In this document: in pieces, positions 18,501 through 63,907 of the stretch | Layout of the letters: every line of letters begins with the position of its first letter | Position numbering within the stretch: position 1 is the stretch's first letter | DNA from: Branchiostoma floridae | Lineage: Eukaryota; Chordata; Leptocardii; Amphioxiformes; Branchiostomatidae | Assembly (NCBI RefSeq): GCF_000003815.2 | Contig: NC_049983.1 | Coordinates: forward strand, 8,318,157-8,382,156 | Reading direction: 5' to 3' | DNA: 64,000 nucleotides | Notes under the pieces: generated by a model | Told to the model about the DNA's origin: nothing | Seen by the model: only the letters and a program-made list of their open reading frames with translations | Databases searched by the model: none | Translations under genes and position numbers: made by a program

Positions 18501-21500
18501 CAGTTCAAAGTAGGCCTTTCCAAGGTACCGTTTTGCTGAAGTAAAAGTGAAATAAAAAAAAAAAGACATTTCGTTTGCTGTATCTTTTTAGCTGGAGGCT
18601 AGCTATAGTATGGCCCAATGGTACTGATATTCATAAGGATAGCATATATTATGTCCATCCCATGAATTGGAAAAGCGATTAGTGGATACGATTCTTGATA
18701 TGTTGTATTTGAGATATGACTAACGTCTGCAAATTGCAGAATACACGTCTTCATCAGATTTCTAGATCATTATGAGGATGTGGCGCGTTGTTTACACCAA
18801 GTGACATTTATCTAGTGCAAAGCCACATACCTATTGCCAGTTGATATTTGTCTTCTCTGTTCAGAGCCTCGGTAGCGCGCACTGCCAGTTGGAAGATCTC
18901 CAATGCCTGCTCCGACTGCCCGTCCCTTCTAAGGTACATCCCGACAGCGTTGAACAGAGGAGTTGGGTCTTCGATTTGTTGTAAGCATTCCTCCTTCCTC
19001 GAGCACGTCTCGACGTCGGCTGTGCTCGTTTTCTTCCTCGGGAATTTCCGGACGACCTCGGAGACGGTCTGCCCGACGATGAGTGTGTTGGTGACGATGG
19101 AGTTGTACTTGATGTGTTTGTCGCGATCGTTGAAGGACACGAACATTCCAAGAGACACGGACGTGGCGTTGGGGAATATCGCCTTCAAGATTCTGATGCC
19201 GTTACTCAGAGCTAAGGTCATCTTCTGCGGCTTTTCCTTCAGGTCAGACCGAACAACCGTCTGTAAGAGCCTTGGTATAGTGAAGTACATCTTCTCCCTT
19301 TGGACGTCATCATTTTCTTCGGTTGGCATCTCGCCTGTTTCTTCCCCTTGGTGTCTTTTGATGAGAGAGTACCTCTCTAATCTCATTAGGATCGTGTTCA
19401 GGTTGTCCGAAATCTCGATTTCCGATACAGAGGAGCTGTTCTCTCCTCCTAGTAGCTCGTCTCTGAGTCTTGAGTCGGTCAGATTCACGGCTGCACGCAC
19501 GAAAATCCACTCCGGAATGGCCAAGTCAAGAAGGGAGCAGATCTCCAACAACTGGATTGCTGCAGGATGGTCCTTTTGCAGCTTCTCGGCACTGAGCAGC
19601 ATGCTGCTTTTCACGTTGATCGGCAGATCGCCGTGTTCCTCGCCAAGAAGGCCCGTGGTTTTCCGCCGGTACAGCTCTAGATATCGCGCGAAGGAGTACT
19701 TGTTGTACCTCATGTAGGCACCGGCTTTTTCTAACGCTAGAGGCAGTCCGTCGAATCCGTTTTTTCCTACAAGAGTCTGTAACGCTTTGTATTCGTCGGA
19801 TTTGGACTCTTTCAGTTCTGTGCGTTTAGATACGGCCTCTTGTAGAGTGAGGTCCCAACGGCGTCGGATCAGGAACAGTTCTGCTTCTGACTGGTTCAAA
19901 CCGGTGACATCGTATACCGCGGTGACTGTGCCGTCCCATACGCGCTTCCAGTCGGTGTAGTCAGAAGCGATGATGATGTGTCCGCCCTTCGGTAGGGAGG
20001 GGAAGTACTCCCGCACCAGGTCGGGACTGCGCACCCCGTTCAGGACCAGCATCCAGTTGTGGTTGGTCAACAGCCATTTCGTCACGACCCGCAGGATATT
20101 CTCGTGGGTGTAGTCTTTTAGTTCCAGAGACAGGCCGATATTGGCCATCTGGTGTGACGGACAAAAACAAACGTACAAAAATAATGAATATGGATCGGTT
20201 TAGTAAAAATGATACCAAAGTCTTCTGCAAGTTAAAATGGAGATGCCGTAAATCTATTGATTTGTATATCGTTTTATCCAGTGATATTTATCTTCAAGCT
20301 TGACTGTAACATTGAAGAGAGTTAGATATCTAGGTGAAAAGATATTCAAGCTAACACATACCCAAGCAACTGGACAGATTTATAAGCAGTTAGACGTTTC
20401 AGGTTGAATCCAATACCATCAGTGACAGAGAAAGCTTGAATGTGTTCGGCTATTACTATTCCGAACACCGCTACATGAAAATGACAGTTAAGAGGTGATC
20501 GGATTGTATGTAAGATTATCAAAGGACCGTACCATTTTCTCCAGCCCAACGTTGAGCCGTTGTCTGGAGGAGCAGGTGAGCCAGAAGATGCCTCCCCGAA
20601 ACCTGCCCTGGTGGTAGGATCTCAGCGCGTACTGGATCGCGATTTCCGTCTTACCGTACCCGGGCAGACCCGTTAGTACCTGCGGGAGACACATACATGG
20701 TGTTACATCATGAACCTGCCCTGGTGGTAGGATCTTAGCGCGTACTGGATCGCGATTTCCGTCTTACAGTACCCGGGCAGACCCGTCAGTACCTGCGGGA
20801 GACACAGAACATGGTAAACATTACATCATGAACCTGCTCTGGTGGTAGGATCTCAGCGCGTACTGGATCGCGATTTCCGTCTTACAGTACCCGGGCAGAC
20901 CCGTCAGTACCTGCGGGAGACACAGAACATGGTGTTACATCATGAACCTGCTCTGGTGGTAGGATCGCAGCGCATACTGGATCGCGATCTCCGTCTTACC
21001 GTACCCGGGTAGACCTGTTAGTACCTACGGAGACACAGAACATGGTGTTACATCATGAACCTGCCCTGGTGGTAGGTTCGCAGCGCGTACTGGATCGCGA
21101 TTTCCGTCTTGCCGTACCCGGGCAGACCCGTTAGTACCTACGGAGACACATACATTGTGTTACATCATGAACCTGCCCTGGTGGTAGGTTCGCAGCGCAT
21201 TCTGGATCGCGATTTCCGTCTTACCGTACCCGGGCAGACCCGTTAGTACCTACGGAGACACATACATTGTGTTACATCATGAACCTGCTCTGGTGGTAGG
21301 ATCGCAGCGCGTACTGGATCGCGATCTCCGTCTTACCATACCCCGGCAGACCCGTCAACACATGCGGGAGACACAACATGGTGTTACACCCAAAGAAGAA
21401 TAGTAATTACAAAATATATTTGTTTTTTTTTAATCAATTTTGGCTCTATGGCTCACAATGAGTAAAAATTAAATCTTCACCTTAACATTGTGCATTCAGG

Positions 21501-24500
21501 CCGTTTTGTTCCATACACATAAAGCAGTTACGAATGTAAATGTTTATCTTTCCATCAACTTTGTCTTTCCTTGTCATCTCTCGATATTTTTATTTTCAAA
21601 TCTCTGTAATACTTTTTATTTCATTTTACAGGGTATCAATTATTATCTCGGTATTTTGACTAACTTCTGCTTCTGTGCAGCGGTATAATTTTGCTTCTGT
21701 GTTGCAAATACTATATTTCAATGATGACTCAATACAACTAAAGACTTACCTGAACCAAAGTGTGACTTTTCATCTGCCCGTACCACATGGAGAAAAACCT
21801 GTCGTGCTCCGACTGCAACTTGCTGAGGTAATCCTCGTGGCCGGTGAAATAGGGCGTGGGGTAGGGCACTTCACTGAAGGGAATCCCAATACCTGGAAAG
21901 GTATAAAGTACGAGAGTGATTTATCAAAAATACCAAGATCGGTGTAGAAAAATATGCTCCAAGAACTTATATTTAGTAGTCTGGGAGGAAAAAACTTACA
22001 AAATTCCTAGCATACGTAGTCTCGTAGCATATCCTGTACATAATATACTAGTAGCCCAATATAAAAGAATGATAGCTTGAAGTCTCCTAATCATTTTGAT
22101 TAAGATATGTTGTTCTATAATTTTGTGAAGAACTTTCGATTTGTATAAAGAGACAAAGGAGGAATTTAGCTGACTAGTTCAGGAACGAATATCCTACCTT
22201 TAGGAACCCCCAAGACACTTCTCAAGCGCTCCTCCTCGGGAATGAAGCGTCCTATGAGGAAGACGGAGCACACAAACACAAGAGCAGCAAGAAAGGACAA
22301 GAGGACCACCCTCAGAACAGTGGGCGCGCTGGGAACAGGTAGTGGGTCCTCTGGTACCGGGGCGACAGGGACTGCAGGGGCGGGAGGGAGATCGTCTACA
22401 ACCGGTAGTGGTCGATCTCCCTCGTCGTACCGTGGTAACTCCGGCTCGGCGTCCGTGGTGAGATCTGCTGCGTCCGTCGCTACAATCAGATCCCACTCGC
22501 GCTCGTATCTCTTCAACGTCCACAACGGCACTCTCAGAGACAAGTCTCTACACGTGGTTTTCAACTCGCAGACGTTGTCCTCGGATATGACGCCCTTTTT
22601 GTCCAGCACCGTGAACAGTTCCCTGCCGTTGGTTACGCGTTCGAACTCGCCGACATGCAGGTGTGCTTTACACACGAACTTGAGTCTCTGGAAGTCTTCA
22701 CTGGTCAGGTTCTTACTGATGTAGTCCAGACAGAGCCTGTAGGAGACTGGTCGCGATCTTGAAGGAGAGTGTTGAGGATGTCCTATGCCAAGGTGACCTG
22801 GGAAACGGACAAAAGCTCATGTAACGCTAGCTCACCTTTTTCCGCGGGTAACCTATGTCCGTTGTTTCTGCAAACAGGGTGTGTAGGGGTACCAAATCAA
22901 CGAACGATGGTTTCAATTTAGAATACTTTCAAAATATCACAGTTTAAAAGCACCGTCCCTAGAGTTGATATCCCCAAATACCCTGTTTTAAAAAACAACG
23001 GACATAGGTTAGCCCGTGGATAAAGGGGAACAAGCGTTAACCTCTATGTCGGTTATCTTATAGATGCAAGTGCATCAGTATTACGTATTCAGGATTAGTA
23101 ACATTTGCCATCTTGATTATAGAGTATTTGATAAGTAATAAACTCTTGTCGTTCTTTTGGTACATTTACAATCAAGAGTTTGCGTATACCAGAACAAAAC
23201 TAAAAGAACCATTGCTGAATGTTGAACGTTAACTTACACAGAGCTAAGCTTATGCATCACAGATTGTAGAAATGAGTCCGAACTAATACATAAGATTAAG
23301 TTCTGCCAATGTATGAAGACGGTGTTGTACATAATTTAGTTATAAAAGTCGTTGGAACCTGTCTTTGTATTACCACTGTGCATGGTTGAATTCTGAAAAC
23401 AAGGAGCTAATAAAGTTGAGATGATTGGTGGAAAAGAAATGTACAGTAGCAAGAAAACAGCTGAAATGTTGGACAGCAAACGACCGTTTCTGATTTCGGA
23501 CAGTTACCGTTGCTGAGCGTTCTGAATGCCTCCTCCTCGGAATAAACATTCTCCCCTGTGTCCCCTTCCCGTCTGCGTGCAGCACGTACTCTGTACGTGA
23601 CGTCAGGTTCCAGGTTCTGTAGTCGGACGTTTTGTGATCCTGCGTGCATAGATACAAACATGTAATGTATCCGTAACGTAAAACCACAATCATGGTGCAG
23701 TTTGACAAATGGCAAATATCACCGTCCAAGATAAAACACATATCCAAGCGCTTATTTGTTTTGGCAATATTTGTCTGAATCATGATCAGTTCAGGTGTCA
23801 TACTTGGTGTCAGCCTTCTTATGGAGTTCCTACAGCATTATATCTGAAAGCATATACGTACGTGCAACCAAGACACTTGCTGGACTGACTGATGATGTGT
23901 CGCCTTCTCCAAGCAGATGCGGGGATAGAAATGCGTTTCTGACTGACTCGGCTTCTGACAGTCACTACCCTCCCGGTTTGTCTTGGGGTAAATAAGGATT
24001 GCCACAAAGCCCGGCCGATTAGAAACGTTCCACCATCTACCCAAAGATCTGCGTGTACATTAGGCCACCCTTATTCAATTTTATGGATGACATCCATGCG
24101 CGCATTGATTTTCGTCTGTGGCCACATGTGACCCAATAGCATACCCGGCCAATCAGATTTTTTTATGCTTGCCAGAAGATCTGCTCCCCATTATATTAAG
24201 GGGCACATGGTCATGGCATGGGGCCACCGTGCCCTTGTTCCCCTCTTAAAGAAGTATGGCAATAAAACACTATTGAAATGGCGACGATTGTCTAGTAGTA
24301 GTACAGCATTACTATAGATGATATAAACCAAGCCTGGAAAAGAATGGACTGGATGTGTAGTCCCGTGGTTTAACAACATTTTTTTGCCGGATTTTTCTTT
24401 TTTTTCGCCCACACGCATTAGCTTTGGGGTCTCCAGAGGATGTCATCCATAAAATGAAGTCAGTGTGGCCTTCGCTGCAAGTGTCGTACATACCTGCGTG

Positions 24501-34093: not shown

Positions 34094-36832
34094 CTTCCAC
34101 TACCACATCACAGGACCTAACAGTTCACAAAAGGCAGACAGTTGCGATGCACAACGATTCTCTTGACCAAGGTACGCTGCGACTTTCGCGTGCGGTCATC
34201 GGTTGGTGTATCTGGCTATGGATGAAGCGATGGAACCGATCGCTGGGCTACTAACACATCAAGCCTTTACAACTGAAGCGACTGTAACGGGGATGTAATT
34301 GCAGAGGGTGTTTGGTTACGGGTGAGTCGCCGTCAGAGGGGGGCCTTTCAACCTCTCTCTAAACTCTCCTTTGATTGGTTGACTCGGAGGGCAGCGGGGA
34401 TGGTATAAGCTTTAACATTGGCCGTGTTTTGATAGTGTGACTTTTCAGCAAATGATATTTTCTTTGGTTAGCAAAGTTGCAACAATGTTTTTCAGGGTCT
34501 AAGGGTAAATTTTGCCTTTAGGTGCAGTTTTTGCCTATGAATGGAATTAAACACACTTATAAGCTCTTAGGAAAGGGGTATAAACTATTTAGAATTCTGT
34601 ATCGGCAGACAGAATTTAACAATTATGATTGAATAATTGATTAAAGAAATCTTACGATTGTAATTAAGGGCTGTTCTTTGTAGACCAAATGTAATACAAA
34701 TATCATACCCAAGCGTAATAAAAGTCGTACTAAGAATTCGGAGGCGTGCGATGTCTTCATGCCTTGGCTAAAACACAATGTCACTGTTTGCGCGCCTCGG
34801 TAAGTTTTAAAACGTCCCACATCTGATACGTCTTTTTGTTGACCCTGGCCACTCCGTTGTCAATGGCGACGCTTACAGGTGCAGTCGCCCAGAACATATA
34901 TACAACTCAGGCCGGAATGGACGGGGCAAAACACTGCAAACACCATAGAATGTTGTAAGGATAGGTACATTGTATCTAGAATCAAAACATGTGCTACGCG
35001 AGTGTAATATAATACAGAAATGTTTAAAGGTTGACAGAGTGTAACTAGTTGATAGGTTGGTGTCCATTGTGACGCGATTATGTATGTTTTGAACGTAACT
35101 CTTTTTGAGATAAAATCTTTAAGAAGAACGTGTCTTATTTACTAATTGTGCCTTTACATGTTAAGGGTTTCTCACTGAAGTTGAGGTACGTTGGCGTCGT
35201 CGTTGTGTTCTAAATCAAATTTGTGTTATTCTTGAATCTATGATGGAAATATCTTGCAAAGCGTTCAAGTATGGTTTGAAAGACAGCAAAACACACAGAA
35301 CCTAAAAAGATTAAAATAATAATTTTTTTTTTATCAATGAAGTTCTTAAGACGGGGAACAACGGACGCTGAACCGTTTTATAATGAGTGTGTATGTGAAG
35401 TTAGAAGCCGCCAATTTACCCAATTGATTTAACGTTCAGGCACCAAATGCGACCGGTATGCTACCGTTGTGATTTGGTGATTTATTTATATTCATCTAGT
35501 ACGTACAACAGATGAAAAAAATCATCATACAGAAGAAGAAAGTATACAGGAGGAGGGCAGAAGCCTTATTATCTTCTTACATATTAGTTTCATGTGATTA
35601 GGTACATCATTAGTTTTCTAGTATCTGGATATGTCTACACTCAATAGCTTTTATTTGTTCTAAACGTACTTTGTATAGGAGTAAATTTGTATAGGAGTAA
35701 ATTTATTTCCGATTTGTATTGTATTTACATAGGGGTGACTAAAACTCTTTTTTTTTCTCGCTTTAAGCTTTTATTCAACATTATTATATAACACGCGCGC
35801 ACGGAACACCCGCCGCCTAACACCCGCCGGCCCACGAACCAGCTGGCCCCAACTATCACTTGCCTCTTTCGGATAGTTGGGGACCGGCGTATAAAGTGGG
35901 GCCAGCTGGTAGTGGGGCGGGTGCATAGAGGCGGGAGGGCGCGCGTTAGGCAGGGGATGGGTAACTCTTATTTGCGAAGCTTCTCGATCTGGTTTCCCAG
36001 GGTAAAGAAGTACATACATTTCAACTCCGAGTTCTCACTTATTTGCTTAATGGGCGCATACTGTCATTGATGAAGATAACCAGTCACACACAGACATACA
36101 CGTCCTTGGTGCTGAACACGATCTGCACATAGACAAACACACCCGTCTCTGGTGGTAATGACCACCATCTACATACAAGTAGATCGACCTATTAGCCCGA
36201 GTCAGGGCTGTAGAACTTCAGTTATCAATGTCAATTTTGGGGACACTTTCTACGTAATAAGATGAAGCAACTCTATTCCATTCCATACCAACATTCAAAG
36301 AGCAAATAATCGATGCTTCAGTGGCACGAAGACGTCGTGAAGTCTAAATCATGTGGGTTACAATATTTAGGGATTCCTAGCGCAGCTTGTTTCTGCACCG
36401 TTTTAACCAATCAGTATGAAGTATGAAATAATGATACATATGAAATAATTCATACAGATTGCCTCATCCATAATATTTCCTTTTAACGCTCTTAACGTTA
36501 TATTGCTTAGGTTGCCTTAAGTTTATTATTGCACCTTATTTCCACCACACCGCTGGCCAAATCCTGCTGACGGGGCAAAACTGTTTGTGTTTACTGACCC
36601 TGAAACGAGCCAAGTAGCTTGGCCTAGGTTTTCTGTAAACCCACTGACCTTTTACCTTTCAATGATTACCCATCATCCATATTGAGTTGCGTGCCAGCGT
36701 TTCGAGCTGGGTGTGTCTGACATAATTGTCTGAGACATAACAAACGAACGACGCATCAGCCAGTGTTCCAGGTGACACAAAATATTGGGGAAACATTGGA
36801 AGAAGAACAGAGGAACCCGCTATACTGCCATA
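34094..36832. other. Intergenic region between the SAM gene and RIC3
   Basis: Holds the SAM gene promoter on its left side and the RIC3 upstream region on its right. No convincing exon. Contains a GC-rich repeat at 35785-36002 and a dispersed TCCTTGGTGCTGAA motif near 36100 that is also seen near 1545 and 10433. Confidence 0.5.
35785..36002. mobile_element. GC-rich MITE, relative of the copy at 61704-61920
   Basis: Shares ACACGCGCGC, CCAGCTGGCC, CGATAGTTGGGGAC-like and TGGTTTCCCAGGGTAA blocks in the same order with 61704-61920. The interior has facing CCAGCTGGCCCC / GGGGCCAGCTGG arms. The left end could not be fixed. Confidence 0.6.
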
Positions 36833-38008
36833 ATGAAGGGATTGGACAACAGAGCCAGGAACAAGTACGCCTACGCACCCGAACATGTGCAGAGTATGCC
36901 ACCATTCAGCGTTTTGCTTGTTGGGGCTCTTCTTGTTATTCTCATAGCCGTTGGACTCCCATGGCTGTATTCCTCTCGATATCCTGATTCGTTGAAGAGC
37001 AAAGCAGCCGACAACATCAGGGCAAGAAATGCTCGCAACGAGCCGTCAGTCCACACGCATGTGGTGAGAGATGGTCGGCCGGGGCCGTTCCCCGGGGCGG
37101 CAGCACAGAGGGTGACCCGGCAACCCGCTCCCAAAGGCGCCCGGAGCATCATGGCGACCGTGCTACCGATCTACGGCATCGGCATTGGCGCGTATGTGCT
37201 GTTCACCATGTACAAGGTGTTCGGTGGGAAAGCTCAAGAAAATGACCCTTCTAGCAGCACGAAGAATTACAACAGCGTCAATGAGAGAGTGCGACGAAGA
37301 CAAGATAACAGTTGCAACAAAAGAGGCTTCTCCTTGTTTGGACAGAGGAAGAGGAAACAGAAGGGACGATTCAACCAAGAAGATCTAATGAAACTGAAAG
37401 AGAAGATAGCCGAGACAGAACAGCTGATGCAGAAGGCTCTAGCTGACATGGCCGCGACGGTGGAAAACGTAGCTGCAGAGGAGTTGAAGGGACAGTTTGA
37501 CAGTACACAAGGGGGTGGGGAAGGTGCTACACAAGGGGGTGGGGAAGGTGCTACACAGGGGGGTGGGGAAGGTGCAGATACAAAATCATCCTCTGAACAG
37601 GTGCAAAACAAAACAGCAGATACTAGTAGCCAGAGCCCTTCCAGAGCTGGGCGTGAGAGAAGGGATGAGATGGGATCAGATAATAGCTTATCATCTGCCA
37701 GAGATGTCAGTCAGATAAAGGGGGAGTTGGAAGAAGATAGCCCAGAGTTCGACCCTGCTACAGGTGAAACCCTTGCTACCAATAAATGTGATGAGGAAGT
37801 CAAGTCAGGTGTGTCAGATGATCATGACATGGAAGCATCTAGTGATGCAGCTGATAACAGCACAGATAAACCTGACATTGCATGTTTGGATGGTAAAGAA
37901 ATTATTGACGTGGAAGATTTAGGTTCAGACTCAGAGGGTGATGCTGTTTTAAGACATCGGAATGTAGATAAGTCAGAGTTGGACAAGTCCACTAGCCAGG
38001 GCAAGTAA
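36833..38008 (+). CDS. RIC3: RIC3 homologue, nicotinic receptor chaperone, single exon
   Basis: RIC3 is an ER membrane protein that promotes folding, assembly and surface delivery of nicotinic acetylcholine receptors. The 391-residue frame shows the family layout: a first membrane segment (residues about 24-46, VLLVGALLVILIAVGLPW), a Pro/Arg-rich spacer, the conserved second segment MATVLPIYGIGIGAYVLF, a basic stretch (RRRQD, RKRKQKGRF) and the coiled coil LMKLKEKIAETEQLMQKAL. The tail is long and acidic with three TQGGGEGA repeats. The first ATG at 36833 is used; a later Met at 36896 just before the membrane segment is an alternative. No intron is visible, although vertebrate RIC3 is multi-exon. 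The last dozen codons and the stop lie in a MITE copy (37974 onward). Confidence 0.85.
   Translation: MKGLDNRARNKYAYAPEHVQSMPPFSVLLVGALLVILIAVGLPWLYSSRYPDSLKSKAADNIRARNARNEPSVHTHVVRDGRPGPFPGAAAQRVTRQPAPKGARSIMATVLPIYGIGIGAYVLFTMYKVFGGKAQENDPSSSTKNYNSVNERVRRRQDNSCNKRGFSLFGQRKRKQKGRFNQEDLMKLKEKIAETEQLMQKALADMAATVENVAAEELKGQFDSTQGGGEGATQGGGEGATQGGGEGADTKSSSEQVQNKTADTSSQSPSRAGRERRDEMGSDNSLSSARDVSQIKGELEEDSPEFDPATGETLATNKCDEEVKSGVSDDHDMEASSDAADNSTDKPDIACLDGKEIIDVEDLGSDSEGDAVLRHRNVDKSELDKSTSQGK
37504..37575 (+). repeat. Three 24-bp coding repeats in RIC3
   Basis: Three head-to-tail units of 24 bases encode TQGGGEGA three times in the acidic tail. Units one and two are identical; the third differs at two bases. 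Multiples of three keep the frame. Confidence 0.95.
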
Positions 38009-38736: not shown

Positions 38737-39285
38737 CGAGGGGCGTTCAATAAGTAATGCCCCTGACCCACTTCCAGTTATCTGATCTAAATGAAATTTT
38801 GCATGTGTACTGATTCATATCTCTATGGGTTATGTTGCAAAAAATAGCTCTGAACTAATTGTGGTTTCTGATTTACTGGTGTTTGAACTGAGTCAGGTGT
38901 GAAATGGACCAGGTGTGAAATGGAGCCAGGTGAGTGTCGCGCAGTGATGCGGTTTTTGTATTTGAAAGGACGCACACCAAAGGAGACTTTTGATGAAATG
39001 AAAGAAACTTATGGTGATGATGCCCCATCATATGACCTTGTAAAACGCTGGCATCTTGAATTCAAACATGGCCGGAAGTCTATGGAAACAGCTCCCAGAC
39101 CTGGTCGTCCCTCTTCTGCCATTGATGAGGCTATAAAAATGGTGTCCAGAGCTGCATCAAACAATGGGAGAAATGCAAAACTCTGGGTGGTTCCTATGAA
39201 GAGAAAGACTAATAACTGTGCCAAGTTTCATTAATCTCCTGCTATGGGAAATGGGTCAGGAACATTACTTATTGATTGCCCCTCG
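38737..39285 (+). mobile_element. Internally deleted Tc1/mariner element
   Basis: CGAGGGGCGTTCAATAAGTA at the left and its near-perfect inverse at the right (about 30 of 34 bases match) are flanked by TA on both sides (38735-38736, 39286-39287), the mariner target signature. Inside, 38899-39234 encodes the N-terminal helix-turn-helix part of a mariner transposase (RAVMRFLYLKGRTPKETFDE, then VKRWHLEFKHGRKS and PRPGRPSSA). The DDE catalytic domain is missing, so the element is non-autonomous. Confidence 0.9.
38899..39234 (+). pseudogene. Mariner transposase fragment, HTH part only
   Basis: About 111 codons with the paired HTH of mariner-type transposases, ending just before the inner edge of the right terminal repeat. 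The last 25 residues have no family similarity, which suggests the internal deletion joins unrelated sequence. No D,D(34)D residues are present, so it cannot catalyse transposition. Confidence 0.85.
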
Positions 39286-42010: not shown

Positions 42011-45000
42011 TCAATAGAACTCCTCCTCTGATGACCCACTGTCCTCCGGCCTTGTGCCTGTTACGGAGTAGTACACTTCCGTCATCAGCCTCTCGAAGGC
42101 ATCGTCCACATTCTTAACATCTGCTGCCGAGGTCTCAAAGAAGTGCAGGGAGCTCTGTTTGGCGAAGTCCCTGGCTTCTCTGATGGGCACTGTTCTGATG
42201 TGGGACAGGTCACACTTGTTCCCAACTGGGATGAAGGAAAAGATACAATATAGATAAATCTTCACCACTTATTCCAGCTCCTATGACCACCACATCTGTA
42301 TCTACCACTTCCTTCTTCCCTCCAGTTTCAAAACTACCATTGATTGTTCATTCTTTATTTAAGGCGCCAATTGCCCCATAGTAAAACAAAAACATACATA
42401 ACTGTTACAGCAATGTGAATATATAAATATGTACAACATTTAAGAAAACAGAGAAACATCTATCTATATATTCCATCTTTGAAAATGTCTATGAAAATGT
42501 CTTTGAAAACATCCATGAAAAATCTTTGGAATAGAACATTTAAAATCAGTGGTGTTGTTAAAGTTTTAATCTGCTGACACAATGTCACAACAGTTTCTAC
42601 TGACAAACTAACATAGGATAACACAGTATATAAATGACGTAACTAGGTTTTTGAAAATATCCGTGAAAAAAAATGGAGTTCTAAAGAATTGTTAAAAAAT
42701 CTATTTCATTATATTCAGTTTTACCTGACTGACAGCTATCGCTATGTCTGGTGAGGCCAGAGGTTTAGTAGAAGAGTAGAGTAATTTTGCTATAAAAATT
42801 ATGTATCATCCATACATCATCTGTACATTTACATAAGGTCAGCTATCAAGACTGGCTGAAGACTGCCAGAGGACCTATGGGACTGGTGATGATAATATGA
42901 TATAAACTAATTTACAACAGAAAGCGTATACGTCAAGTCATTACCTAACATGACCACAATGCCCTGATCATCAGCATCTTCCTGTAGCTCCTTGAGTCTG
43001 TTCTGAGCATGCTCAAACGTTCCATGTCTGGTGATGTCATACACCAGGAAGGCCCCCACCGCTCCTCTACAGCAGGCACTGATGATGGGCCTACAGGACA
43101 CAACAGTACAGGTTAGGCTACAAGATGTCATACACCAGGAAGGCCCCCACCGCTCCCCTACAGCAGGCACTGATGATGGGCCTACAGGACACAACAGTAC
43201 AGGTTAGGCTACAAGATGTCATACACCAGGAAGGCCCCCACCGCTCCCCTACAGCAGGCACTGATGATGGGCCTACAGGACACAACAGTACAGGTTAGGC
43301 TACAAGATGTCATACACCAGGAAGGCCCCCACCGCTCCCCTACAGCAGGCACTGATGATGGGCCTACAGGACACAACAGTACAGGTTAGGCTACAAGATG
43401 TCATACACCAGGAAGGCCCCCACAGCTCCTCTACAACAGGCACTGATGATGGGCCTACAGGAGAGGGGAGATAACTACTGATTAATAACCTTTGACAAAG
43501 GACGTCCCTGTAGCTCAATTGGTAGCAGCCTCACAGTTATTGAGTGAAGCTCCTAGTTACATTTACTCTGCAACTGCTTCAATCCTGGGTTGGGCATCTC
43601 GGTTGGGGCTGCACCTGTCTTTTGGAGGGGATGTAAAATGTGCTCCCGTGTTCCAGGAAGTGTCTCAAGCATGTTAAGGGGAAAGTGCTAGCTACCCCTC
43701 CATGTGAAAGCATGCTCTGCTATTGAAACAGTAAGGAAACTTGCTTCCCTACATGTACACGTATTGGCCACCAGGGCTAGGCACTACAAAGGCTTGAAGA
43801 AACGAACAAATATTTAATAGGTTTCCAAGGATTGGTAGAAGAAAGCCATTCGGAGTTCCAGTGCATTCTTCATTCTGTGACTTAGACTATTTGCAACTGA
43901 AAACCAAACAAAATCAGATTGTTCATGGTCAAATTCCTCTCACATGGCAGAAATCACTGCACCACAGAAATACAAACTGTACGTGAACATAAAAAAATAA
44001 AACTGCACACGAAACAAAACAGCCAATCTTAATGTCAGGAGTTACAGGTATAATGAAAAAGATAATTGTAGACAGAGGTTTATGATTTTGATCAAGTTAT
44101 TGATTCCTACACAATTGAGAGTACATGTCCAGTAACAGCTGTGTAACTAACCTGTATCTGTCATCCCCTGCAGTGTCCCAGATCTGAGCCTTGATGGTTT
44201 TCCCTTCTATCTTCATGGTCTTAGTGGCAAACTCTATCCCAATGGTGGGCTTACTACCTGAGTCATACCTGCTAAATGCAAACCTGGGTGGGAAGAACAA
44301 CTGCATCATTTAAGATATAACAATATAACATACACATGTATGTGCAAAGGTATGCACACATAAAGGAGACATTACAAAAACTACATACATGCATGCTAAC
44401 ATAATGTATCTCTACTATTTCTTGTTTACAAGTAAAGCTCATTTGATGCAAAATTGGCTTTCACTGTTAGTATGAGATTCATAGAATTCCAACTACAACA
44501 ATATTTTAAACTAATGTACATTCATTCACATTGCGCATGATGTCACATTACGTATGGATCTTTGGGGTAAACCCTTTAGTTTATTGAGAAACTGATTTTC
44601 AAGTGAACTAGGGCTGGGAACCGGTACAGAAAATTCAGGTCCAGGTCCAGTTCAGGTCCATAGGATCAGGTCCAGGTCCGGACCTGAACCTGGACCTGAT
44701 TCAGTATGACTCATACCAATGGCCCATTTCACTACAAAGAAATCTGTTGGGTGGAGTATTAGACTTACACTGGCATTTTAAAATCCTACAACGCTATTTG
44801 CAACTGTGGAATTGGCTGTAAAATTTAGTAGAAGTTATTATAAACTCTACTCTACTTCACTCTTGTTATTTTCTTCCACCTACAAGTGAATGCCTGATAA
44901 AATAATCTGTTAATTTTCTAATCGGTCCAATATCCGGTCCACCTAATTTTTTCAGGTCCGGTTTTTCTGGACCGGTTCAATAAGAAAAAAACGGTTTTGT

Positions 45001-48000
45001 ACCGGTTCGTTGTACCGATACCCAGCCCTAAAGTGAACTCTACACAAACTCATATAGGGTTATGTAGATACAGGTTTTAGAATCTAAGAACAGACATAGA
45101 AAGCTTTCTACAAATTTGGCTAAAAAAAGATTTAGTTACCTTGAGAGAAGATTACTCTTGCCAACCCCAGAGTCTCCCACTATGACTATCTTGAAGGTGT
45201 GATCAGGCTCTGGGGGTGCTGGGCTCTCATAGTCAGCTGTCTCCGATTCTGTTCATAGAAAATATAACATTACCAATTGCCATATAATGTAAATTTTGTA
45301 CATGTACCATGAATTTATTATACAAGCAGTTTCTATGCGTAGAAGTCCACTAGACACAAGTTCAGGATCATCAGAATCTTGTTCTTCACATTCTATCAAT
45401 GTACATGTACTATCATTTACACCTAGAGCAGTACATGTATATCCAGAATATCACATTGGTACAAGTCACCTGCAGGTTGCTCCGGACTCTCTACAGCTGA
45501 GTTGTCCCACTCAAGTCCTACTGCCTCATCCTCGGGCATTTCTCCTGGAAAAATGATTATCATTTACATAGGATACAGATTATAATCAGGAAGAGAAGCG
45601 ATCCCTCGTCTACAGAAACTCTAATCAGGATAATGGTAGAGTGATTCTGACAGCTTACAATCTCTATCGTGACATATGGATATGAAATTTCAATGTGTAA
45701 CAGTTACAGATTAAAACACAGAAGTCCCCATCCATACCTTCCATGAAGTCCAGCGAGTCCAACACCTCCCTGACCTCCCCCAGGTCCACATTGACAGGGC
45801 GGAAGTGTTCAGTGATTCCAGCGTGCAGGGGGTCTGGGGAGGCCACGTCAAGGATCCTGGCAAGTGGTAATATAGGAACATATTATAACTGTGACTACTT
45901 ACATGTAAGTAACATACTTCCCAATTAAGATGTAAATGACAGCTACCAGCAAAATGTGAATTAGATGAGGCTAAAAAATCATCCCCACACTACACATGGT
46001 GGTGTTGATGGCAGCGCCTATCTCTGATTGGAAGCCCTTGGGCCACACAGCTTTATGCAATGACTACAACAGGGGGTTACTCCACTGGTAGTGGTGTGTG
46101 TTTGACTACCATACTCTTTCCCAAATGCCGAGCGCTAAGCAGAGAAAGCAGAATGTACTAAACTACATAATATAGCAAAATCTTAGGCAGTCTTTGGACG
46201 GGAGACCTGGCACATCCCCGTCTTGTAATTAGCCAGCGAAAGGGCGGTATAACCCCGTCGTGTGTAAACATGTGCGAACATGTGTGATCACGTCGACCGA
46301 TGATGATGATGATGAGTCTTTGGTATGACTTGGCCGGGAATCAAACAATTACCTTCCATTGACAGCTGCTGCTGTCTGTAAGAAGCAGGCGGGGTCCTTC
46401 TCCTTCAGAACCATGCCTCCCAGCGCCACCACACCTATCCCATGGTCCATCTTCTCCTGGTAACGCTCGATGTGCGACTTCAGCACTGACAGCTTCTCGT
46501 TACGCTCGTGGTCGATCGTGTCCCCAAGGACCTGCAACACGGAAAAACTTAAGAACTGAGAAACCAAAGACAAATAGCCTGAAGAAATCCTTCACATATA
46601 CAGTGTGCAAAATACCCACTTGCACACTTACACATTGCAACCACTTTTTGCTTGGTGCAACTTACTTCTAAACTCAGGTTGCACAGGGTGCAACTTAGAT
46701 TTTGAGCCTCAGACCTCGATTTTGTTGTCAATTTACTAATAGAAGGAATCAACCGGACCGAGGCAGCTCTGTTTCATATCAGCCAAACATGTCAGTAATT
46801 GCAGATTTCTTGGCAGATGGACATTTTTAATAGTGAATTGTATGTGGTGCAACTTGAAATTCAGTTGTGCAACCTAGTTTTTGCCCCAGGTTGCACACTG
46901 TGCAACCCGGATCAGAAAAGTATTTTGTACTCAGCATATAAAGCAACATCCGAACTAGCACATGTGTTACAAACTGTGAGTACATCCAAGATGTTTAGAC
47001 AACAGCTAGTGAAACACATGCAAAACCCAGCTAGTGGCACATGAGGGACTTGATAACTTTGATAAGGCACATGCGTTTTTTTTAATGATTTTTGAATGAC
47101 ATGTTATATGCTGTGTATGTCGTGTGTCCAAGTGTTATGTGGAATTATTACTCCTGGAGGAGTAGATGTTGCGGTGGTAAGCTGTCAACAACTAAAGGAG
47201 TAAATAAACAATAAACAATAAACCTGCTTCTTCTTCTGTAGTGTAGAGATGAGCGAGTCGAGTTCCACGAACAGGGACGACTTGTGACGGGAGGCGTTCT
47301 CCTGTAAATCAATGGAAAACGGATCAATTAGCTTCTAAATGAGGATATAATGCAATTATGTTATCATTAGCTGAAATAATGACATCTGATGGTTGTAATA
47401 CAGTGTTCTACAGTCTTGTTGTTCTGCCATTAATTCTTTTATCGAAAAATAAAACGTATCTGCATTATTACCTTCGACAGTAAGTTGTGGCTGTGTATGG
47501 ATTGTTCTTTGTAGAAAAAAAAAGCAGTTTAACTTGAAGGCCTGACACGTGATATTCTATCATGGGCCATCTGTCCTTTTTTTCTTAATTATTTACAGTT
47601 ATGTTACTTAAGATATGTTGCTTCATTTGGGACTTACTTCAATGCCAATGATATGTTTTTAACACAATTACATAGTATATACCATGCTTATGTGCAACAT
47701 CCCTACATAACATAGTCAATGTATCTGGCTCTTGACTGGTGGCAAGTTTATTGCATTTAAAGAAACTGATGAAGGTTTGAATATTCACAGGTTAGTGATT
47801 GCATAGCTTAGCCAAGGAGATACGTAATCCTGACTGCCTATCACAATTATCAATTTAGGCAATAAGAGGATGGCAATTAGTGGTTTGACCAATGAGAAAG
47901 TGGCTGCATGTCCATGAAATATTTTCATTGCTATTTTGTTGCTCTTCATTATGACAAAGGTGGGATAGGCTATATGACTACAGTATTGCCAATACCTACA

Positions 48001-49279
48001 CAGACAAGCTGGTACATGGCCTGTAGCAGTTGTATTCCCTTCTCATAATCTGTGATCCTCCAGGCCAGGTTCTCTACACTGGTCCTCAGGATATCCTGTT
48101 GGGCAGGGAACAATGTTTCCTAATGATAGTGCAGCAGCAAATCAAAGTAACAAGATTCTACAACAGTTTTGGCACATAAAAATACATCTATCATTACAAG
48201 CTTGTCAATACGAGCAAATACTGTGTTGATTACCCTAGTATAAATAGACATGATTAGATACACTAGATTGGCTATTTGGCACACCAAGTTTAAACTTTAA
48301 TTTAGGACGCATATATGATGACGAGAAACAAAAACTACAGTCCTTTTACCTAATCATATACTTACTGGTGCACAAGCAGTGCCTTGGGACCTCCAAACAC
48401 CAATTGACAAAAGAAGGAATGTATTGCCAAAGGGTAGTCATACCGGTTTAGAGACTGATAGTGATAACGTTAGAGATAAACTTTCCTAACGACCATATTA
48501 CTTTTCAAAGTGTTCTGAATCTTTTAATGTCACGTGAAATTAGTATTGGCAAATTCATCAATGGATACCTCTTGCAATTAATACAACATAGAATAATAAA
48601 TGAAAATTTTAATATTTTTAGAGTTTGTACATTAAAAATACCATGTTACCTTCATTTCCTGGTACATCTCGGGCAGTTCTACCACAGGGTGGGCGGAGTG
48701 CCTGCCGTCCGACTCCGTACACCGCGGACAGATGATGGTCTCATCCGACACGCAGTACAGACTCAGCTTCTCCTCGCCGTGGTCCTGACACTTCGGCGTC
48801 TTCGGTACCGTCACTGTCAGCGGGTCTACAAGACGGTGCTTCACGAAGGCTTTTCTCGAGTGCACCGCCGTGAGACATTTGTCACAGAAGGAGAGCTCGC
48901 ATGTGACGCAAGTTTTCACCGCGTCTGCTGCCGGGCTTTTCTCGCAGACTTCGCAGGCAAGGTTGCCGTCAGAAGAGCGAGCTGTAGCGGCTTCGGTACC
49001 TTTAACTCTTTCGATGATATTTTGGAGGGTAAGGTTTGGGCACAAGCAACGCAAACCCCTGTCGTCTAAAAACACGGCGTTTTTACACTCGGGGCAACTG
49101 AAACATCGGTCGGTTTCTTCGGATGATTCGGGGTTAGCAGGGGTTTTGGATGTACCGGAGGAAGCTAGGAGGTTGTAGGCACACTTGCAGCATACGCTGT
49201 GTCCACAGGGAAGGAGAAGCGGCGAGGAAAACAGATTGTTGCAGTACGGACAGGAAAGCTCCCGCTCAAGCGCCTCCAT
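42011..49279 (-). CDS. TRIM-Rab fusion: RING, two B-boxes, coiled coil, COS-like box, Rab11-like GTPase
   Basis: Ten exons keep one frame: 48650-49279, 48000-48095, 47224-47301, 46353-46531, 45738-45856, 45470-45544, 45140-45248, 44152-44283, 42945-43090, 42011-42225 (592 residues). Residues 10-95 are a RING (CPYC ... CGHSVCCKC ... CPEC), about 108-205 two B-boxes, then a coiled coil and a COS-like box ([12 protein letters not shown], then [17 protein letters not shown]) as in class C-I TRIMs such as TRIM9 or MID. Where these carry FN3-SPRY, this protein has an acidic linker and a Rab domain (from about residue 412): G1 [10 protein letters not shown]3 WDTAG, G4 NKCDL, G5 ETSA. Two oddities: switch II reads AGDDRYR where Rab11 has AGQERYR, so the catalytic Gln is Asp, and the C terminus EEEFY lacks prenylation cysteines. 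Expected role: E3 ligase with a nucleotide-binding module, by analogy with TRIM23. A donor at 47223 (GTTTAT) is weak. Confidence 0.85.
43033..43458 (-). repeat. Tandem array of the acceptor-proximal part of the Rab exon (5 copies, 91 bp)
   Basis: Units start at 43033 (inside the real exon 42945-43090), 43124, 43215, 43306 and 43397, a constant 91-base period. Each holds the CCTGTAG acceptor and the coding start [19 protein letters not shown]. In intronic copies 1-3 the frame ends right after that part with TTG TAG. Copies 1-3 are nearly identical to the exon; the last copy has diverged at a few positions. Confidence 0.95.
43504..43795 (+). mobile_element. tRNA-derived SINE
   Basis: TAGCTCAATTGGTAGCAG fits a tRNA A box and TTCAATCCTGGGTTGG a decayed B box about 60 bases on. 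A non-tRNA body follows. The acceptor stem is not paired, so this is a SINE and not a functional tRNA gene. It lies in a TRIM-Rab intron next to the 91-bp array. Confidence 0.65.
44609..45030. mobile_element. hAT-like MITE with perfect 8-bp target duplication
   Basis: Begins TAGGGCTGGGAACCGGTAC and ends GTACCGATACCCAGCCCTA, flanked by AAGTGAAC at 44601-44608 and 45031-45038. It is in the opposite orientation to the copy at 7810-8242. It lies in the intron separating the G1 and switch exons of TRIM-Rab. Confidence 0.9.
45990..46310. mobile_element. Possible SINE with a 5S rRNA-like segment
   Basis: GCCGAGCGCTAAGCAGAGAA and TTTGGACGGGAGACCTGGCA resemble the internal promoter part of 5S rRNA, spaced about 40 bases more than in the gene, with unrelated sequence on both sides and a (GATGAT)n tail. 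Best read as an old SINE in a TRIM-Rab intron; the family is not certain. Confidence 0.4.
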
Positions 49280-59398: not shown

Positions 59399-62300
59399 TC
59401 ATTGGTACGCCGGCTGTCCCCCGAAGGGCGGGGCCTGTTTGGGCGGGAGCTGGGTGGGGTCCTCCATCTCGGTGGGACTGATGGGTTTGAACTGTTCCGC
59501 TGACATCCTGGTGATGAGGATCCCCACGCCTTCTATCAACGCCAGCAGCACTCCACCAATCACAGCAGACCCTGCCATGGCTGCCCAACCACCTGGGGTC
59601 AAGACAATATCATCATGTTAGATGTGTAGAAACATTTACGATGATGATAATAGCAATAGTCTTTATTGCACATATGATCACATGATTTAGTGCCTGGATG
59701 TAAGATACTAGTACTAGCAGGGTTGGACAAGTTTGATCAAATTCACTTGTACCGACTTTTCTCTTGCCCGAAATTTAAATAACATTGTTCTATGTATTTT
59801 CACTTTCAGCAATGGAATCATTTTTATATTGGCTCTAGTTTTCTATGGTGACCAAAGCTTGATGCCATGGTTGTGAAAACTAGCAAGTTTATCAAAATCT
59901 CACTCATGGAAAAATCTTACTTGCCCAATTGGGCAAGTGGTGTAGGACATGCGCTTGCCCAATCAGCACTCACACTTGCCCGGGACAATCGGACTAGTGA
60001 ACTTGTCCAACCCTGACTAGTAGAAAGTATGGAACACTATGCATAAAAACACTACACTATTGGTAACCTATATACCTAACAGTTTCTTTTCTCTTATTGA
60101 AACACATGGAAATATAACTACATGCTGTAAATGTTTCCCTCGTTCAACCTAAAGATGGTAAAGGATTGTTGCTGATTGGTTTTAAAACCAAAACACACAA
60201 CCATCTACCATGTTACCAAATGGTGCATCATTAGGTTGCTACGGTTTGCTAATTCACCTAAATCAATCATATGCCATGTCCAACTGCAGGCCTTGGCTGT
60301 GACCTCTAAATTTTGGGCATTTATTGACAAGAAATATCAATACTACTGATGACAAAATTTCTGTAGGTTTGTGCATTTAACGAAAGGGATAGATGGTGCA
60401 TAGTACAACAGTGCATGACAATGACATACCCTGTGTGTGTGAGCAGTTGTGCTACCATTCAGCCCATGTTAACATAGTCAATAGGAAGTTTCCACACAAT
60501 TTGATAACATTAACAACAAAGTACAACTCACTTCTTGCTGCCAAAACTCCCCCTGTGACTGCACCACTAGCTATAGAGTTCCACGGGTCCTCCTTTTTTC
60601 TTAGATACACCATGCCGCAATCAAACGTTGAGAACAAGCCTCCCCAGATGGCAAAATTTCCTGGAAAAAGAAAACACAAAATGTGATAGACATCTCAATT
60701 GTTACTGTCAATCCAACTACTAACTACATGTATGTCCAACAGTAGTATATGGAACAACATTATAAAAGTAATATGTTGTCACATGATGAAAAGCCACCAT
60801 TCAGGATTAAATGAAAGCACAACAACATAGACCCTTTTTCTGTGCAAAAAACTTCACAAACCCATAGGAACTGCAGTTCTTGTTAGCTACTTGACAATAC
60901 CTTGAAATACAGGTTAGTTGTTGCTCAAGTTTCCCTTTGAATTTGCAGGTCATCGCATCACGATCAGGCGTTAGTTACTCACCCCCTGTAATTGGTGCCC
61001 TCATCTTCACAGCTGTCAGACTCCCCAGTGCTCTGTGCCTCCAGCCCTGTGAACCAAACAAGTCAAGTGAATATCATAAACACAGCATAGAGAATTCAAA
61101 ATGGTAGAAGAAGAACACTCCCATGGCAGTTTACATTATCCTCATGGACTCTTACACTTACAGTGCTTACACTTACAAAGTTACAGTGTAAGAAAAGCAT
61201 GTTGTAATCTACTGAAGAGGTTTCTGTAAATTTTGAGGATCTACTATTAAAGTATTTATGCTTTTATGGTTTAGGCTTGTCAATTACCAGACCATTGCCT
61301 TTCCTGGTAATACCACATGTGTCAGGCAAATTTGCATTGGATTTGGATACTAGTGCCAGATCATGCACAATGACCATCTGTGATCGGATATGCCTTCTTA
61401 CAGATCCAAGCCCCTGACATGTTAACATTTCTTGTCTCCACCATGCTAATTTATGTGTCAGGGGCCTCAGTTGGATCATTCAAAGGGCTTTTGCCCAACA
61501 CTATGACATGAAGGATGGTTCGATCAAGCGTCTACAAAGTACTCACTGCTGGAGCGTTTCTGAAGCCCTTGATACTCTGGAACACCCCTCCCCCGATGGC
61601 ACCCATAGTGAAGGCACCACCACAGTCATCTACGATTCTGTACGGGCTGAAGCAAAGATGATAATGTAAATGTTGGAACGATCAAAACAAATTTATACAT
61701 GTAGTTACCCTGGGAAAACCAAACTCATATTTCTAAGAAGCAATACGTGCCACACGCGCGCCCGCAACTATACACCAGCCCCATTATCCAGCTGGCCTCT
61801 CACGATAGTTGGGGACAGCTGGATCGTCTGGCGGGTGTTAATTGCGGGGGCACGTGTGGCGGGGATCGGTAGCGAACCCTTTCCGCACAGGCTCAAATCA
61901 GTCTGGTTTCCCAGGGTAACATCAACTGGATTACATGATTTGGCAGATTTTGAAAGATTTACAAAGCTATTCTGTTGCTTGAGTAACTGTTATCTCAATG
62001 AGGTTAGTTACCTTGTGTACCTTACAATCTATCTGTAACTTACAGTGTAAGCCTATTTTGAACCATCTTCGTTTATACTTATAGTCTCCATATAACGTTA
62101 TGACTGTTTTGAGACACCAGATATACAAATATGGGGACAGTTGCCAGACACCATAAAATGACATGAAAGATATAGAGTATGACTTTACAATAGAAAATGT
62201 GCTGTATACAATTATACCGGCATAAGGTTATACCGTATATCATTGATTTCACATGTTGCAATCGAAAAATTTATGAGTACCGACCCTGACGTCATGTACA

Positions 62301-62691: not shown

Positions 62692-63907
62692 ATGTCATCG
62701 TTTGCCAGTTCTGGAGACTGGCCTGAGAACTTCAAGCAGTTGAAGGTTTGTCTTCGACTTTTTGTAATGAGTTTGATGTGAAACTTTGATATCGGGGGAC
62801 AAGCCAAGACAGACCGGCTAGCAGAAAGGGGGAGGGGGGGCCGTACCCATTCATCATCCTATGATGATGTTACGAGACCTTACGAAAGTCATGATTTGTG
62901 AGGAAAATGGGTGAGGATGATATATAAGTTTGAACTTAAGTTCTATCTTGTCTTACATAACATATTTGCTGTCAAACATCATTTTAGCTTGGGGATCACA
63001 GAATCACTATGTTATGAAGATGATGATAACGTTAAAATTTATACATCTATAATTATGAAGGAATAAGATGTTGATCATGTAACTTGTTACAGATTTAGTT
63101 GAAGATACACTATGACATAGTAGCATGTTGACCAGTTAATCATTTACTTTACATCGCAATTCTGATGTTATAAGAATGTAACGTTAACAGTTAAAGAAAT
63201 AGATATAGAATACATCACAGTGTGATCATGTGAATAGGATCATCCGAATGCCGTCTATCAATGCAAAATGTGCCAAAAGTTGAAAGAATTTGCTATCTTC
63301 AAGGATATAACGTCCTTGGTATTTTGAAGCAAAGTACCAATCATTGTCAAAATCTCATATTTGAATTTTCAACATTAGTGCATAACTGTGTTGTAACCCA
63401 AAACATCACCCTGTCTGCATCATTACATTATCAAATGGCCCAGGTATGACATGATTTATGTTACATATCATTATGTCATCTGTGCTGTTGACTTATCACT
63501 GGTAATGTTGTTATAGACCATAGACGACCTGCTGCGCTGCCCGATCTGTTACGAGTACTTTGACATCACCATGATCATTCCTCAGTGTTCACACAACTGT
63601 AAGTACACAATCAAACATTTCAAGATTGAACATAATATTGTCCTTTTTGAAGACTGTGTGACTTTTATAAGGTTTCCATCTCCAGCTTTTGCCCTCATCA
63701 TCATATCTTGCCTCTGGCTCCAACCGTTCCAGTGATGGGAAGTGATATTGGACTTGCAGCATAGATTTTGCGCTGGCTTGGATGTGCTGCCTCTTTTTAT
63801 GTATCCAAGTAATTTTGTTGTTGTCTCTTTTCTTTTTACATATAGACTGTTCCCTGTGTATCAGAAGATATTTAAATTACAAGACCCAGTGTCCAACCTG
63901 TGGAGTG
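62692..63907 (+). CDS. RAD18: RAD18 E3 ubiquitin ligase, first three exons (3' partial)
   Basis: RAD18 with RAD6 monoubiquitinates PCNA at stalled forks and starts translesion synthesis. Exons 62692-62745, 63517-63598 and 63846-63907 join in frame to about 66 residues, and the gene runs off the window. After MSSFASSGDWPENFKQLK comes the RING: DDLLRCPICYEYFDITMIIP, then QCSHNYCSLCIRRYLNYKTQ, then CPTCGV. The zinc ligands C3HC4 (CPIC, CSH, CSLC, CPTC) are all present, and the order and spacing match RAD18 almost residue for residue. Zinc finger UBZ, SAP and RAD6-binding parts must lie to the right. Confidence 0.95.

Follow-up and report, generated by a model that had tools for sequence, protein, structure and literature searches.

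TRIM23 (ARD1) is described in the available text of PMC8358228 as a RING, B-box and coiled-coil (RBCC) protein that carries an ARF domain, the exons and introns of which are arranged virtually as in Arf1, and is called the sole member of class IX of the tripartite motif (TRIM) proteins in the available text of PMC11359179. Here we describe a predicted gene of the lancelet Branchiostoma floridae, located on the minus strand at 49279-42011 of a 64,000-nucleotide stretch of contig C5 (the window, C5:8318157-8382156), and its relatives in the 513-Mb genome. Judged from the DNA, this locus is probably a real single gene encoding a TRIM E3 ubiquitin ligase with a C-terminal Rab11-type GTPase domain (TRIM-Rab). 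As far as TRIM23 is described in the part of PMC8358228 that was available, the two proteins are alike in having a RING, two B-boxes and a coiled coil (only predicted in TRIM-Rab) followed by a small GTPase. In contrast to TRIM23, which is of the ARF type with Arf1-like introns, TRIM-Rab carries a Rab11-type domain whose introns match none of the four that could be placed in the Rab11 gene of this genome, and among solved chains its TRIM half is closest to MID1. By its predicted composition, TRIM-Rab is a TRIM-GTPase joining different from TRIM23 and made from different parts.

Several other described systems share portions of this architecture. The C-I TRIM proteins (MID1, TRIM9, TRIM67 and their kin) are matched by TRIM-Rab in the RING with a long insert, the two B-boxes, a predicted coiled coil and a possible COS box, but TRIM-Rab has no FN3 or SPRY match, whereas its relatives at C10:16242442 and C9:7325738 have SPRY within 13 kb downstream. 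With Rab11 and Rab25 it shares the G motifs, with 57-61% identity to Rab11 in the Rab parts, but it is without a prenylation Cys, its switch II is altered, and the Rab domain is fused C-terminally to a TRIM ligase. The large Rabs (Rab44, Rab45/RASEF and Rab46/CRACR2A) also have a C-terminal Rab domain after a coiled coil; in contrast to TRIM-Rab they have EF-hands of their own, a RING or B-box is unmentioned for them in the available text, and the long form of Rab46 has an isoprenylation site (PMC8303950). Branchiostoma-specific invention of a new TRIM C terminus is represented by the TRIM-MATH proteins, to which a MATH domain was added rather than a GTPase, according to the available part of PMC3503706. 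The first-pass annotation of the window knew of no described TRIM-Rab protein, and this is in line with the literature searched (mostly papers without subscription, partly in excerpt, with predicted database proteins outside its scope), where no description was found. TRIM-Rab is unmentioned in the available portions of Marin 2012 (PMC3503706), Kloepper 2012, an eLife article of 2021 (PMC8195603) and the large-Rab review (PMC8303950), and likewise in Diekmann 2011.

Gene model and domains of the window protein

The gene consists of ten exons with GT-AG borders at all nine introns and continuous phase, and the spliced frame of 1779 nt encodes 592 amino acids followed by a stop. The exons, in window coordinates, are as follows.

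Exon 1, 48650..49279, minus strand: residues 1-210 with RING, B-box 1 (109-149) and B-box 2 (160-202), found with Pfam; ligands invariant in a second TRIM-Rab gene (the sister)
Exon 2, 48000..48095, minus strand: coiled coil, 32 codons; exon 2 of the sister likewise has 96 nt
Exon 3, 47224..47301, minus strand: coiled coil; TRIM_CC match from the coiled coil on, 19.6 bits, below the cut-off of 30
Exon 4, 46353..46531, minus strand: end of the coiled coil and first part of the COS-like region
Exon 5, 45738..45856, minus strand: COS-like region, ending in phase 1 at the fusion junction; that intron is common to the sister within one column
Exon 6, 45470..45544, minus strand: linker, phase 1-1, with in-frame Met 370
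Exon 7, 45140..45248, minus strand: end of the acidic linker, followed by G1 (GDSGVGKS, 417-424) of the Rab domain
Exon 8, 44152..44283, minus strand: G2 (T442) and G3 (DTAGD, 465-469; Asp in place of Gln)
Exon 9, 42945..43090, minus strand: central Rab domain, beginning at the last of five near-identical acceptors
Exon 10, 42011..42225, minus strand: G4 (GNKCD from 523), G5 (TSA from 553) and an acidic tail ending in EEEFY, with no C-terminal Cys

An end of exon 2 at 47996 breaks the frame and was replaced by the end at 48000 (donor GTAGGT), which keeps it. The domain order of the protein is RING, two B-boxes, coiled coil (a weak match), possible COS box (also a weak match), acidic linker and Rab domain. 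Thus, the ten in-phase exons proposed in the first-pass annotation to join a RING/B-box/coiled-coil/COS-like N terminus to Rab G motifs stand as proposed, with GT-AG borders throughout and a layout that is repeated in the sister gene. Coding character was assessed with a codon score, trained for each exon on the others, against 1000 stop-free intron windows of equal length. The scores of exons 3, 4, 5, 9 and 10 were reached by none of the 1000 windows, and those of the linker exons by two (exon 6) and three (exon 7), so that the linker looks coding as well. At the length of exon 1, 200,000 tries yielded no stop-free intron window.

In the TRIM half, the Pfam family zf-RING_UBOX matched residues 10-63 with 29.2 bits when residues 1-105 were scanned alone (cut-off 25.2), whereas in the full-length proteins it stayed below the cut-off for the window copy (21.9 bits) and exceeded it for the sister. 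All eight zinc ligands of the RING (C10 C13 C25 H27 C30 C33 C62 C65) are invariant between the two genes, as are the ligands of B-box 1 and seven ligands of B-box 2. An ANCHR-like B-box (109-149) and a B-box (160-202) were above cut-off in the full-length window protein, and the best solved chain for the TRIM half was that of the MID1 tandem B-boxes (E = 3.6e-24). TRIM-Rab is predicted to function as an E3 ubiquitin ligase. No Pfam match at E ≤ 0.001 was found for FN3 or SPRY anywhere in the window protein, or for EF-hand in either TRIM-Rab protein.

The C-terminal half (residues 412-572) matched the Pfam family Ras with 176.6 bits, above cut-off, compared with 51.5 bits for Arf. Among solved chains, Rab11B and Rab11A were its best matches (Rab11B 214 bits, against 176 for Rab25 and 141 for Rab2A), with 100 of 176 residues identical to the Rab11B chain 4ojk, and Rab11B was again the best solved chain for the Rab half of the sister (188.6 bits). 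These matches bear out the earlier assignment of the GTPase to the Rab11 type. Of the Rab G motifs described earlier, G1, G2, G4 and G5 are intact, but the catalytic Gln of G3 is Asp. The window copy has all five motifs, and the two genes agree in them except for this Gln, G3 being DTAGD in the window copy, DTSGQ in the sister and DTAGQ in Rab11. This replacement, the missing prenylation site and the sister gene had escaped the first-pass annotation. The G3 Gln is catalytic in Rab proteins, and Rab25 is naturally without it. The last Cys of the window protein is residue 526 of 592, and the usual Rab prenylation site is therefore missing; in the sister the last Cys is residue 576 of 592, and the C-terminal sequence DVDSMFD is not a prenylation motif.

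A second TRIM-Rab gene and the history of the pair

The sister gene lies on the minus strand of the same contig at C5:5189187-5179969, 3.2 Mb from the window gene. It was first found through a TRIM-half match with 43% identity (C5:5188549-5189187), followed 6-7 kb downstream on the same strand by Ras matches. The model has 11 GT-AG exons and 1779 nt encoding 592 amino acids, and its least certain piece is a micro-exon of 23 nt (C5:5184275-5184253), located by looking for a piece with the required phase; at the place where this micro-exon begins, the window gene lacks an intron. The Pfam domain order is that of the window protein, and the two proteins share 45% identity overall, with 89 of 209 residues identical in the RING and B-boxes, 70 of 157 in the coiled coil and COS-like region, 6 of 31 in the linker and 93 of 166 in the Rab domain. 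Among the matches listed, the two TRIM halves are reciprocal best non-self matches (166 bits each way). Five of the nine introns of the window gene are common to both genes in the same phase and within one alignment column, including the phase-1 intron at which the COS-like region ends. The other junction intron also has phase 1 in both genes, but sits in the unalignable linker.

A phylogeny of each half had been suggested by the first-pass annotation and was carried out here, using alignments with rows anchored to one reference and insertions lost. The Rab tree included 14 further loci hand-picked from the Ras-family matches (C5_8.77 and C10_4.47 were dropped at a coverage below 100 positions). 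The Rab domains of the two TRIM-Rab genes formed one clade next to Rab11 (92.3 in the approximate likelihood-ratio test SH-aLRT and 93 in the ultrafast bootstrap UFBoot), and the split of the two TRIM-Rab and two Rab11 sequences from 12 other loci was supported with 98.7/99. At 47 positions both TRIM-Rab sequences differ from the two Rab11 sequences, and at 19 of these they have the same residue. The TRIM tree included 11 further loci (C17_5.17 was dropped at a coverage below 90), and the TRIM halves grouped moderately, with 80.3/80 on residues 1-367 and 75.9/64 on residues 1-210. Over 581 aligned codons, the proportion of nonsynonymous differences between the two genes (pN) is 0.375 vs 0.742 for synonymous ones (pS), and in the Rab part alone these values are 0.269 and 0.759. 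The most likely history is one fusion followed by an old duplication, with both copies kept open under constraint; the fusion is placed before the duplication because the sister has the same layout, the COS-closing intron is common to both genes, and the Rab halves form one clade.

The Rab11 gene of the same genome has its exons between C3:12149218 and 12150602. None of the four of its introns that could be placed by eye coincides with an intron inside the Rab half of the window gene, although one is about five codons from an intron common to the TRIM-Rab genes, in the same phase, where sliding is possible. Of the three introns inside the Rab half, one is common to both TRIM-Rab genes. Since the C3 Rab11 introns lie elsewhere, the source copy of the Rab half, unlike that of TRIM23, is not readable from common introns, and the intron positions would fit either capture of an intronless Rab11 with later intron gain or intron turnover.

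For the combination of the two halves in this genome, 111 of 434 TRIM-half candidates and 150 of 376 Ras-family candidates were scored, so that the counts are lower bounds. From at least 113 TRIM-half and at least 150 Ras-family matches, at least 13 pairs lie on the same contig within 100 kb, and ten of these belong to the two TRIM-Rab loci. Among the matches listed, the three remaining pairs are 54.5 to 78.9 kb apart, two of them on opposite strands, and the two TRIM-Rab loci are the only TRIM-half loci with a Ras-family match within 30 kb. A scan of viral contigs for relatives gave six stretches fitting a pattern, none of which encodes a relative.

The first-pass annotation had further proposed that an FN3-SPRY part was replaced by the Rab11-type domain. 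None of the 30 SPRY matches in the genome lies downstream on the same strand and contig of either TRIM-Rab locus, in a search that runs exon by exon and can miss. Among the 11 related TRIM loci chosen for the TRIM tree, five are followed on their own strand by a SPRY match at a distance of 0.8-12.7 kb (C10_16.24, C9_7.32, C9_13.653, C9_13.657 and C1_9.29, with C9_13.653 and C9_13.657 sharing one match), at C1_9.27 the SPRY match is 37 kb away, and for five (C3_11.64, C9_11.2, C5_19.84, C5_19.850 and C17_5.17) none was found nearby. The Rab11-type domain thus appears to sit where several TRIM relatives have SPRY, and its replacement is plausible and partly supported: the absence of SPRY at both loci and the five relatives with SPRY close by agree with it, but the six without a SPRY match within 30 kb do not. 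The window TRIM half also matches a cluster of TRIM loci at C9:13643940-13658214, which is followed by SPRY matches at 13662917 and 13673392.

Tandem arrays and other features of the window

The acceptor of exon 9 lies in a tandem array.

Tandem array, 43033..43462, minus strand: 91-bp units, 4.7 copies (Tandem Repeats Finder), covering the acceptor and the beginning of exon 9

Within the array, exon 9 starts occur at 43454, 43363, 43272, 43181 and 43090, of which the one at 43090 alone continues into the complete exon. With any of the four upstream acceptors, the protein would stop after 493 residues and so be cut short ahead of G4 and G5. Duplicated intron-exon borders are known as "mirages" of lancelet genes and left regular splicing undisturbed in the cases tested, according to the available text of PMC3087553, and the phenomenon also appears in that of PMC3902484. 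By its sequence layout, the exon 9 array is an instance of this published lancelet feature.

A second mirage-like array, in a different gene, occupies 20600-21388 of the window on the minus strand, with seven copies of a 113-bp unit in which a splice acceptor is followed by the start of a P-loop exon (GLPGYGKTEIAIQYALRSYHQ). Near it, at 22169-22816 on the same strand, an open frame encodes a death effector domain (DED, 53.6 bits), and the two may perhaps be parts of one apoptosis or immunity gene. On the plus strand, an open frame at 36776-38005 has a RIC3 domain (54.8 bits), and 38887-39231, with an HTH_48 domain of the Mos1-type transposase kind (38.5 bits), is probably what is left of a mariner element. 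The frames at 63517-63732 (plus strand) and 59402-59617 (minus strand) presumably resemble RAD18 (RING) and TIM17, respectively, with no Pfam match at E ≤ 0.001 for either.

Proposed function and alternative explanations

With this architecture, the coiled coil would make a dimer presenting two RINGs and two Rab domains. The Rab domain in its GTP state may bind Rab11 partners on recycling membranes, by which the ligase would be brought to its substrates there. Being without a lipid anchor, as is TRIM23, the protein would not cycle through the GDP dissociation inhibitor (GDI), and membranes would be reached only via partners, or via the COS-like region along microtubules. In the window copy, the change of the catalytic Gln to Asp should make hydrolysis slower and the bound state longer; because the sister keeps the Gln, the pair may be long-acting and timed versions of one device. 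We tentatively propose that the two genes could represent an independent second kind of TRIM-GTPase, an E3 ligase pair of lancelets self-addressed to Rab11 membranes, one GTP-locked (Gln to Asp) and one timed, with ubiquitination tied to recycling-endosome traffic.

Several results speak against parts of this interpretation. The codon scores of exons 2 and 8 are weak (reached by 43 and 99 of 1000 intron windows, respectively), and these two exons rest on homology and splice sites. The TRIM_CC match stays below its cut-off of 30 in both proteins (E = 0.00085 in the window copy; 22.7 bits in the sister), and the only solved chain at E ≤ 1 for the COS-like region is the MID1 chain 5im8, which we take to be the COS box (E = 0.68, a weak match that ends where exon 5 ends). 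The grouping of the TRIM halves is moderate, synonymous sites are near saturation, and the six relatives without close SPRY belong here as well. Switch II, a part of the face that binds Rab11 family-interacting proteins (FIPs), is altered in both genes by A75P, T77I and Y81C, and Y80 has become Cys in the window protein but Phe in its sister (presumably Rab11A numbering; 70, 72, 76 and 75 in the chain); for this reason the binding of Rab11 partners is not assured.

The locus could instead comprise two adjacent genes, one for a TRIM protein with exon 5 as its last exon and one for a Rab that starts in exon 6, merged by the modelled splicing, with the sister locus as a duplicated pair. The in-frame Met expected in the exon at 45470 is indeed present (Met 370, exon 6), another lies at the exon 7/8 junction of the sister, read-through of the exon 5 donor would add a short tail before a stop (frame open to 45667), and intron 6 contains an AATAAA (45319). 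Two separate genes are nevertheless very improbable, since both Rab parts are without a C-terminal prenylation motif, the junction introns (193 and 221 nt in the window gene, 183 and 148 nt in the sister) leave scant space in which one gene could end and a promoter could lie, and the sister repeats the order of parts, with its COS-like region closed by the same phase-1 intron; both junction introns are moreover in phase 1 in both genes. An assembly error joining two loci, for which the tandem array within the gene and the 415 undetermined bases (N) elsewhere in the window might be cited, is scarcely credible: 3.2 Mb away a diverged second gene repeats the layout, the two genomic matches of a linker query are both the window gene itself, and 42011-49279 contains no N.

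Other alternatives accept the fusion and differ on what the GTPase does. By analogy with TRIM23/ARD1, the GTPase domain might be less an address label than the switch of the ligase itself, on which the RBCC part acts back, as the GTPase-activating part of ARD1 would do. The order of parts, RBCC and then a small GTPase, is as in TRIM23 in the available text of PMC8358228 and PMC11359179, and the reference list of the latter cites ARD1 with an ARF domain and a GTPase-activating domain. This autoregulation is unlikely here, given that the GTPase family differs from that of TRIM23 and the TRIM half matches MID1. A GTPase-activating protein (GAP) normally positions the catalytic Gln, which the window copy does not have. 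It is similarly doubtful that the Rab domain serves in the window copy as a frozen scaffold, with nucleotide bound permanently or never and only a protein-binding surface left: the Gln-to-Asp change in G3, the missing prenylation site and the four truncating acceptors of the exon 9 array would suit it, but G1, G2, G4 and G5 are intact, the sister keeps its Gln, and the Rab part is constrained (pN and pS above).

A second joining of a TRIM protein with a membrane-traffic GTPase, from another GTPase family and in two diverged copies, would mean that the combination arose more than once and is worth keeping. The natural pair with and without the catalytic Gln would also let one ask if the GTPase part serves the ligase as an address or as a switch.

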